From Cinclus cinclus (taxonomy: Eukaryota > Chordata > Aves > Passeriformes > Cinclidae), in the NCBI RefSeq assembly GCF_963662255.1, contig NC_085080.1, positions 1,061,503 through 1,125,502 of the forward strand: a DNA stretch of 64,000 bases, written 5' to 3'. This document shows positions 12,501 through 15,500 of the stretch, in pieces (position 1 is the first letter of the stretch; each line of letters starts with the position of its first letter). Below the pieces are notes generated by a model. The model was not told the origin of the DNA. It ran no database searches and was given only the letters and a program-made list of their open reading frames with translations. A program made the translations under genes and the position numbers.

Positions 12501-15500
12501 GTCAAGCGTGTCTGCCCGCGGTCAGGATGGCCTTGGAGGACATCAACGAGCGCAGGGACATCCTGCCCGACTACGAGCTGCGGCTCATCCACCACGACAG
12601 CAAGGTTCGGGTTTGGGGTCGGGTTTGGGGTCGGGAATTGGGGTTTGGGGTCGGGAATTGGGGTTTGGGGTCGGGAATTGGGGTTTGGGGTCAGGATTTG
12701 GGGATTTGGGGTTTGGGGACATCAACGAGCGCAGGGACATCCTGCCCGACTACGAGCTGCGGCTCATCCACCACGACAGCAAGGTTCGGGTTTGGGGTCG
12801 GGTTTGGGGTCGGGAATTGGGGTTTGGGGTCGGGAATGGGGAATTGGGGTCAGGATTTGGGGATTTGGGGTTTGGGGACATCAACGAGCGCAGGGACATC
12901 CTGCCCGACTACGAGCTGCGGCTCATCCACCACGACAGCAAGGTTTGGGTTCGGGTTTGGGGTCGGGTTTGGGGTCGGGAATTGGGGTTTGGGGTCAGGA
13001 TTTGGGGATTTGGGGTTTGGGGACATCAACGAGCGCAGGGACATCCTGCCCGACTACGAGCTGCGGCTCATCCACCATGACAGCAAGGTTTGGGTTCGGG
13101 GTCGGGAATTGGGGTTTGGGGATTTGGGGTCGGGAATTGGGGTTTGGGGTCGGGAATTGGGGTTTGGGGTCGGGAATTGGGGATTTGGGGTCGGGAATTG
13201 GGGTTTGGGGTCAGGAATTGGAGATTGGGGTCGGGAATTGGGGATTTGGGGTTTGGGGACATCAACGAGCGCAGGGACATCCTGCCCGACTACGAGCTGC
13301 GGCTCATCCACCACGACAGCAAGGTTTGGGTTCGGGTTTGGGGTCGGGTTTGGGGTCTGGAATTGGGGTTTGGGGTCGGGAATTGGGGTTTGGGGTCGGG
13401 AATGGGGAATTGGGGTCAGGATTTGGGGATTTGGGGTTTGGGGACATCAACGAGCGCAGGGACATCCTGCCCGACTACGAGCTGCGGCTCATCCACCATG
13501 ACAGCAAGGTTCGGGTTTGGGGTCGGGTTTGGGGTCGGGAATTGGGGTTTGGGGTCAGGATTTGGGGATTTGGGGTTTGGGGACATCAACGAGCGCAGGG
13601 ACATCCTGCCCGACTACGAGCTGCGGCTCATCCACCACGACAGCAAGGTTTGGGGTCGGGTTTGGGGTCGGGTTTGGGGTCGGGAATTGGGGGTTTGGGG
13701 TCGGGAATTGGGGTTTGGGGTCAGGATTTGGGGATTTGGGGTTTGGGGACATCAACGAGCGCAGGGACATCCTGCCCGACTACGAGCTGCGGCTCATCCA
13801 CCACGACAGCAAGGTTCGGGTTTGGGGTCGGGAATTGGGGTTTGGGGTCGGGAATTGGGGTTTGGGGTCGGGAATTGGGGATTTGGGGTTTGGGGACATC
13901 AACGAGCGCAGGGACATCCTGCCCGACTACGAGCTGCGGCTCATCCACCACGACAGCAAGGTTCGGGTTTGGGGTCGGGTTTGGGGTCGGGAATTGGGGT
14001 TTGGGGTCGGGAATTGGGGGTTTGGGGTCGGGATTTGGGGATTTGGGGTCGGGAATTGGGGTTTGGGGTCAGGATTTGGGGATTTGGGGTTTGGGGACAT
14101 CAACGAGCGCAGGGACATCCTGCCCGACTACGAGCTGCGGCTCATCCACCACGACAGCAAGGTTCGGGTTTGGGGGTCGGGTTTGGGGTCGGGAATTGGG
14201 GATTTGGGGTCGGGAATTGGGGTTTGGGGTCGGGAATTGGGGTTTGGGGTCAGGAATGGGGAATTGGGGTCGGGATTTGGGGATTTGGGGTTTGGGGACA
14301 TCAACGAGCGCAGGGACATCCTGCCCGACTACGAGCTGCGGCTCATCCACCACGACAGCAAGGTTCGGGTTTGGGGTCGGGTTTGGGGTCGGGAATTGGG
14401 GTTTGGGGTCGGGAATTGGGGGTTTGGGGATTTGGGGTCGGGAATTGGGGTTTGGGGTCGGGAATTGGGGATTTGGGGTCGGGAATTGGGGATTTGGGTC
14501 AGGAATTGGGATTTGGGGTCAGGATTTGGGGATTTGGGTCAGGAAGTGGGGTTTGGGGTCAGGATTTGGGGTTTGGGGTCAGGATTTGGGGTTTGGGGTT
14601 GGGAATGGGGATTTGGGGCTAGGAATGGGGATTTGGGGTCAAATTTTTTGGATTTTGGGTCAGGAATTTGGGATTTGGGGTCAAAATTCAGGATTTGGGG
14701 TTGGGATCTGGGGTCAGGATTTACGATGTGGGGTCAGGAATTGGGTTCTTGGGGTCAGGAATTGGGATTTGGGATTTGGGGTCAGGAACGATGGGATTGG
14801 GGTCGGGATCGGGGTTGGGTTCAGGTTGGAGGTCACAGGATGGGGTCGGGATTGGGGGAATTGGGATTGGGGGACACCGGGAGAGGTTTGGGGTCACTGG
14901 GATGAATTTGGGGTCACTGGGATGAATTTGGGGTCAATGGCATGGGGCAGGATGAGGTGGGGATGGGATCGGGACGGGATCGGGACGAGATTTGGGGCAA
15001 AGGGTCGGGAATGGGGCTGGGATTTAGGGCAGGAATTTGTGGCCAGAGTTTGGGATTTGGGGCCTGGATTTGGGATTTGGGGAAGGAATTTAGGGCTGGA
15101 ATTTGGGATTTGGGCCAGGATTTGGGATTTGGGGCTGGGATTTGGGATTTGGGGCAGGAATTTGGGATTTGGGGCTGGGATTTGGGATTTGGGGCAGGAA
15201 TTTGGGATTTGGGGCTGGAATTTGGGATTTGGGCCAGGATCTGGGATTTGGGGCTGGGATTTGGGACTTGGGGCAGGAATTTGGGATTTGGGCCAGGATT
15301 TGGGATTTGGGGCTGGGATTTGGGATTTGGGGCTGGGATTTGGGACTTGGGGCAGGAATTTGGGATTTGGGCCAGGATTTGGGATTTGGGGCTGGGATTT
15401 GGGACTTGGGGCAGGAATTTGGGATTTGGGCCAGGATTTGGGATTTGGGGCCAGGATTTGGGATTTGGGGCTGGGATTTGGGATTTGGGGCAGGAATTTG

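Follow-up and report, generated by a model that had tools for sequence, protein, structure and literature searches.

Tandem copies of exon edges and their splice sites at both ends of a GABBR1 intron in the songbird Cinclus cinclus, a probable case of exon stuttering

The DNA analyzed here is a 64,000-nt window of the Cinclus cinclus genome (assembly GCF_963662255.1, contig NC_085080.1, positions 1,061,503 to 1,125,502), and all coordinates are counted from its first nucleotide. A tblastn search with a GABBR1 probe placed GABBR1 on the plus strand at 7315-34016, where the window carries two sushi exons, the exons of the binding domain and much of the membrane part. The start of the neighboring gene, BRD2, also lies within the window, and a single run of 200 N is present at 36337-36536. 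When matched exons were compared with 19 bird GABBR1 records, identity was highest for the songbirds Cinclus (496/526), Chamaea (590/627) and Catharus (717/763), and lower for non-passerines (0.84-0.90) and for sparrow- or finch-like birds (0.81-0.90). The features described below are collected in Table 1.

Table 1. Positions of source exons, exon-edge copies and associated repeats in the window (slashes in sequence motifs mark junctions).
Feature	Positions	Strand	Evidence or remark
GABBR1 exon, start of GABA-binding domain	12308-12604	+	tblastn with GABBR1 probe, match to solved GABBR1 chains, conceptual protein; 3′ end is the source of the donor copies
Source 66-nt block at exon 3′ end	12539-12604	+	22 codons, DINERR to HHDSK; donor AAG/GTTCGG
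Donor-side array	12605-14362	+	Ten further 66-nt blocks, each with a GTT donor; spacers of G-rich minisatellite
Copy at 13022	13022-13087	+	No other extra copy has a donor that leaves the frame open with the normal acceptor
More degenerate G-rich tandem repeat	14363-15510	+	Contains no exon blocks
Acceptor-side array	16897-18522 (left limit approximate)	+	Eight copies upstream of the true site; unit about 170-200 nt, ending in acceptor plus 18 exon nt
Acceptor copy, AG changed to AC	17048-17065	+	Same type at 17240, 17412, 17786 and 17967
Acceptor copy, cctcag intact	17584-17601	+
Acceptor copy, cctcag intact	18139-18156	+
Acceptor copy, cctcag intact	18341-18358	+	One mismatch in exon part
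Following GABBR1 exon	18523-18657	+	tblastn, conceptual protein; source of the acceptor copies
BRD2, 33-nt copy of 52815-52847	52149-52181	+	94%; source lies around the start codon, no exon edge
BRD2, 3′ edge of exon ending at 53006 (eight diverged copies)	53193-54105	+	In the downstream intron; none in 100 shuffles of the region
BRD2, 60-nt copy of the 5′ edge of the exon starting at 61874	61496-61555	+	98%; own cccag acceptor

The exon that ends at 12604 had been numbered exon 5 in a previous reading made from the sequence only. That numbering is not established, the exon being the third GABBR1 exon recognized in the window, after the two sushi exons; a pattern for the small linker exon that joins the sushi domains to the binding domain had no match. 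The ATG at 12308 is in frame and is followed by a hydrophobic stretch, and may represent a GABBR1b-type start. Just 5′ of it, at 12293-12310, near-duplicate sequence carries an upstream three-codon reading frame (ATG ACC CCA TAA). Both exons that served as sources of the copies are intact, with an open frame and a GABBR1 match over 12440-12604 and 18523-18657, and the intron between them is the longest among 17 GABBR1 introns.

The sequence-only reading had reported ten extra copies of the last 66 nt of the upstream exon, each with a GTT donor, and all of them were located in the intron. The exon block starts at 12539 and the copies at 12718, 12877, 13022, 13258, 13443, 13582, 13748, 13895, 14096 and 14297; a search of the window for the same block on the opposite strand, with up to 15 mismatches allowed, found none. 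GTTCGG or GTTTGG follows directly 3′ of every block, and the GT is kept in 10/10 copies. The coding blocks are indeed nearly identical: with the exon counted, 9/11 are identical, and the one variable column of the 66 is C except in the 13022 and 13443 copies, which have T. Variation in spacer length was likewise found as described (73-170 nt), and no two of the ten spacers are the same. The spacers are made of a G-rich repeat with a period of 20 nt, and G4 motifs cover 51% of the coding strand across 12605-14500, where none was found on the other strand. At their left edge all ten copies read TTTGGG/GACATC, as opposed to TTGGAG/GACATC in the exon, and the 20 nt to the left of this point are shared by all ten, as if a single founding junction had been multiplied. 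Since these left edges have no AG, the donor-side copies can act only as donors of an extended exon, and a role as cassette exons is ruled out.

A second array, overlooked previously, occupies the opposite end of the same intron, where the acceptor has been copied eight times together with the initial 18 nt of the following exon (17048-18358). The sequence cctcag/TGTGAC is kept in 3/8 of these copies, and 5/8 read ccccac/TRTGAC. Clean inactivation of the five AC copies is not claimed, as each has a new AG 10 nt downstream. The acceptor unit has 12 variable positions among 159 ungapped columns, and three of these separate the AC from the AG copies perfectly. All three were noticed, post hoc, to lie at −4 to +10 of the junction, within the last 22 of the 159 columns. 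Gene conversion in short tracts, with the true exon as template, could account for this clustering, and so could selection against decoys; neither explains it firmly. Across 17048-18540 the copies follow the order AC, AC, AC, AG, AC, AC, AG, AG and then the true site, which suggests duplication of a larger three-copy unit.

The presence of a single variable site in 66 raises the question of whether coding selection has kept the copies identical because they serve as exons. The copied coding blocks were not detectably more conserved than the intronic flanks in either array. On the donor side, 1/66 block columns and 2/33 left-flank columns vary (Fisher p 0.26), and in the acceptor unit 3/18 exon and 9/141 intron columns vary (p 0.14), both tests being small and of little power. 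Flanks that appear about equally homogeneous in such low-power tests, left edges devoid of AG and the occurrence of donor-side copies in all three frames relative to the exon argue against selection of this kind, which we regard as scarcely credible. We attribute the near-identity of the coding blocks to recency and homogenization.

The search settings published for comparable copies in chicken (match of at least 20 nt, bit score of at least 42.1, proximal intron; PMC12954441) were applied to GABBR1. All passing matches (10/10) fell in the adjacent intron, at 125-133 bits, and 20 shuffles of the introns gave no match of 20 nt or more under the same settings. Among 36 GABBR1 exon edges (18 exons, some boundaries approximate), arrayed copies with up to 3 mismatches in 18 nt were found at only two, in a screen too stringent for copies with the divergence of those in BRD2. 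A permissive screen of 34 edges against their adjacent introns, which tolerated up to 16/48 mismatches, detected no copied edges beyond those at 12604 and 18523. In the 18-nt screen, five other edges had 1-3 scattered matches, with 2-3 mismatches, in unrelated places or on the other strand. These are read as chance matches; in a control, 14/154 interior 18-mers also matched at this level, including four at the source block of the array. Tandem repeats, as annotated by TRF alone, cover 78% of the arrayed intron, a median of 76% over 17 GABBR1 introns and 4% of exons. A weak GTTTGG donor with a G-rich repeat directly after it also seems to close a further GABBR1 exon, at 28328-28420, and no exon block is copied there.

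Copies of exon edges were also found in BRD2, where a screen of five exon segments gave the 60-nt copy at 61496 and the 33-nt copy at 52149, and eight diverged copies were found of the 3′ edge at 53006. As the 33-nt copy does not correspond to an exon edge, two BRD2 edges have copies (Table 1). The donor-side copies in this gene are more diverged, with GT kept in 2/8 and AC in 6/8, whereas the GABBR1 donor copies all keep GT. They fall short of the published threshold, with 34.2 bits for the highest-scoring fragment of one copy. The BRD2 copies point to a regional process rather than one specific to GABBR1.

These arrangements closely resemble exon stuttering, which was described in chicken as the copying of a lateral part of an exon, together with its donor or acceptor, through the adjacent intron (Hron et al. 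2026, Genome Biol Evol evag038, PMC12954441). According to that report, 115 genes and 236 introns are affected, 190 of these introns on dot chromosomes; the exon parts measure 20-187 bp (median 36), are present in 1-44 copies and span 112-23,555 bp. Stuttered introns differ in length among chickens, which is one of the chief characteristics of the phenomenon, local expansions in other birds are mentioned for some instances, and chicken dot chromosomes have chromosome median repeat coverage of 7-93% by combined repeat annotation (PMC12954441). As in chicken, the copies in Cinclus are tandem exon edges with a splice site, all direct and all in the adjacent intron (ten donor-side, eight acceptor-side). 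The copied part reaches the exon border and the splice site (GT in 10/10; acceptor region in 8/8, AG intact in 3/8), the source exon is intact, and the intron is heavily covered by repeats (78%). The donor side (66 nt, 10 copies, span of 1824) lies within each of the published ranges and passes the screen. The acceptor side fails it, its 18 exon nt falling short of 20 nt; the whole unit is longer through its intron part. The present case also departs from the systematic chicken screen in coming from a songbird and in having copies at either end of a single intron. The main text of PMC12954441 does not mention GABBR1, a literature search by term for exon stuttering found nothing beyond this paper, and a search with songbird terms added found none among the matches listed.

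Two other systems share some of these features. Intron gain by tandem genomic duplication (e.g. PMC4974935) likewise involves tandem duplication of a segment bearing a splice site; in Cinclus, each array multiplies either donors or acceptors only, and there is no sign of a new intron. The VNTR in TERT intron 6, which has been linked to splicing (PMC11830802), is also a many-copy tandem repeat within an intron. The excerpted text of that report makes no mention of copied coding exon edges, and an effect on splicing at GABBR1 is only putative.

Taken together, the data argue, with a probability that we put at roughly 90%, for exon stuttering, that is, a recent repeat-driven tandem expansion across two exon-intron borders that multiplied exon edges and splice sites. 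Membership of the GABBR1 array in this class is well supported, as judged independently of chromosome class and population variation. The sequence-only reading had left a choice between donors, acting as decoys or as alternatives, and an expansion of very recent date. Expansion is the part that stands, given the single variable site, the distinct spacers and the copying on the acceptor side and in BRD2; the GT retained in 10/10 copies makes alternative donors possible in principle.

An assembly artefact, in which a repeat was falsely expanded or scrambled, was also considered. G-rich arrays are of a kind mishandled by assemblers, and at least 12 bird GABBR1 records have their first residue at CDPG, which directly follows this intron, or no more than 6 residues from it, as would happen if the assembly or the gene model lacked the exon. 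Against an artefact, the ten spacers are all different, the acceptor array and the BRD2 copies behave alike, and the only N run of the window is the one at 36337-36536. In addition, the general structure of a comparable chicken array, in PHF8, was verified by raw nanopore reads (PMC12954441). We thus consider false expansion or scrambling very unlikely. At the level of the sequence the array structure is certain, and the exact copy number, which comes from the assembly, may be wrong.

The reading frames of the donor-side array were determined in relation to the exon. As had been stated, the copies at 13022, 13748, 13895, 14096 and 14297 are in frame, and the frame that runs on from the exon stays open until 13501, its first in-frame stop being the TGA at 13499-13501. 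The T of this TGA is the C>T variant of the 13443 copy, and the stop closes the later donors. Use of the donor at 13087 would add 483 nt, or the 161 codons previously calculated, with the frame open through the next three exons examined (to 20849). When joined to the normal acceptor, 9/10 extra donors reach a stop. In a model that paired 11 donors with four intact acceptors and five shifted AGs and was read through the exon ending at 20849, only 2/99 pairings were free of stops, namely the normal one and 13087 to 18523. The remaining 97/99 contain a stop; 55 of the 99 pairings use hypothetical shifted AGs of the AC acceptor copies.

Donors were scored with an informal donor matrix. On this matrix the true donor, AAG/GTTCGG, is weak (−0.11, versus −2.15 to 7.14 for 13 other GABBR1 donors; 2/15 donor positions, from assumed boundaries, had no GT and were left unscored). 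The copies score either −0.11 or 0.25, the latter value belonging to AAG/GTTTGG in the 13022 copy, and 13/150 other GT sites in 14400-18500 score at least as high as the true donor.

These results bear on the possibility that the copies are used alternative donors, with donor 13087 producing an isoform that carries 161 extra residues inside the ligand-binding domain. No stop interrupts the frame between 12604 and 13087 or in the next exons examined, this pairing is one of the two without a stop, and the donor of the 13022 copy scores slightly above the true donor on the informal matrix. The insertion would, however, be a low-complexity, glycine- and tryptophan-rich segment with two frame-shifted copies, lodged inside a presumably folded domain, and the resulting exon would be very long. 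Moreover, a second recognizable block was found in 0/212 distinct related proteins (the best 120 of 288 and the best 120 of 423 matches), with a pattern that would miss diverged blocks and in a set where many records are without this exon altogether. An expressed array protein is unsupported by this set, and we consider such an isoform highly improbable.

Several other observations were made on the related proteins. In the same best-match set, 5/212 have other insertions before CDPG, none of them array-like in the part inspected; one of the five, a Nipponia record, reads VREGMG and may represent read-through past the donor. A search with the three-block translation gave 23 weak matches. Before CDPG, one Geospiza record (P0053) carries what looks like intron sequence together with a diverged block, ENINERWDVLPDCELRLIPHSK, and on the strength of this one record the block may be a stutter copy mistaken for the exon. 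Four records from sparrow- or finch-like birds (P0014, P0053, P0129 and P0131) all have YNLPFKII in place of YNDPIKII, and three of the four have HYDSK or HVDSK in place of HHDSK. Such binding-domain changes could be the signature of a copy that evolves fast or has been duplicated.

A further alternative is that the extra donors (downstream) and acceptors (upstream) compete with the true sites, so that allele length would set the share of unproductive transcripts and, through it, receptor dose. With the true sites included there are eleven near-identical donors and four intact acceptors, almost all modeled pairings contain a stop (97/99, where 55 of the 99 rely on the hypothetical shifted AGs), and the informal matrix gives the true donor a low score, which 13/150 other GT sites equal or exceed. 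Exon-proximal splice sites that define short exons usually win, which argues against effective competition, and we judge a dosage effect of this kind unlikely. In a more specific form, the paired arrays would constitute a length-variable splicing rheostat of a neurotransmitter receptor from which decoy sites are selected away as the arrays age. Removal of decoys with age would fit both the AC/AG differences at −4 to +10 and the loss of GT in 6/8 BRD2 copies; we hold this version to be quite unlikely.

Under exon stuttering, the arrays are probably a repeat-driven by-product that is tolerated because exon-proximal sites win. The exon-proximal donor and acceptor would normally be used, since they define short exons; the copies would be mostly silent, and occasional mis-splicing would give premature stops. 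On balance, use of the copies in splicing appears unlikely. The retention of GT in 10/10 donor copies counts against this reading to the extent that a functional reading would also predict it.

We suggest the following route for the expansion. The G-rich minisatellite begins at the donor, and slippage or a template switch may have joined it to a point inside the exon (..TTGGAG/GACATC in the exon, ..TTTGGG/GACATC in the copies). Unequal exchange, gene conversion or slippage would then have multiplied and homogenized the composite unit of 66 exon nt plus spacer. The acceptor end could have undergone a comparable event, the two ends representing what we infer to be separate events, and G-quadruplex-forming repeats are a likely driver. 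For stuttering in chicken, either replication stress and G4 or meiotic exchange has been put forward, and the mechanism was left open (PMC12954441).

Transcripts from this locus call for caution in interpretation. Every donor copy would give identical mRNA for the 65-66 nt before the junction, which confounds a short-read junction test, and the acceptor copies share the 18 nt after the junction, so that the site used is hard to identify from short junction reads. Aligners are known to produce false junctions between repeats (PMC10632439). Care is needed with automatic gene models, and with junction counts from short reads, near this exon.

The GABBR1 arrays extend exon stuttering to a songbird and to a gene for a GABA receptor, in which a single intron is hit at both ends. 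Spliceosome choice among many near-identical cis sites can be studied here in a natural setting, as can the question of whether receptor output changes with repeat length. If the rheostat were true, transcripts with this exon would choose among eleven donors and four intact acceptors, and allele length would set the loss to stop-containing RNA.
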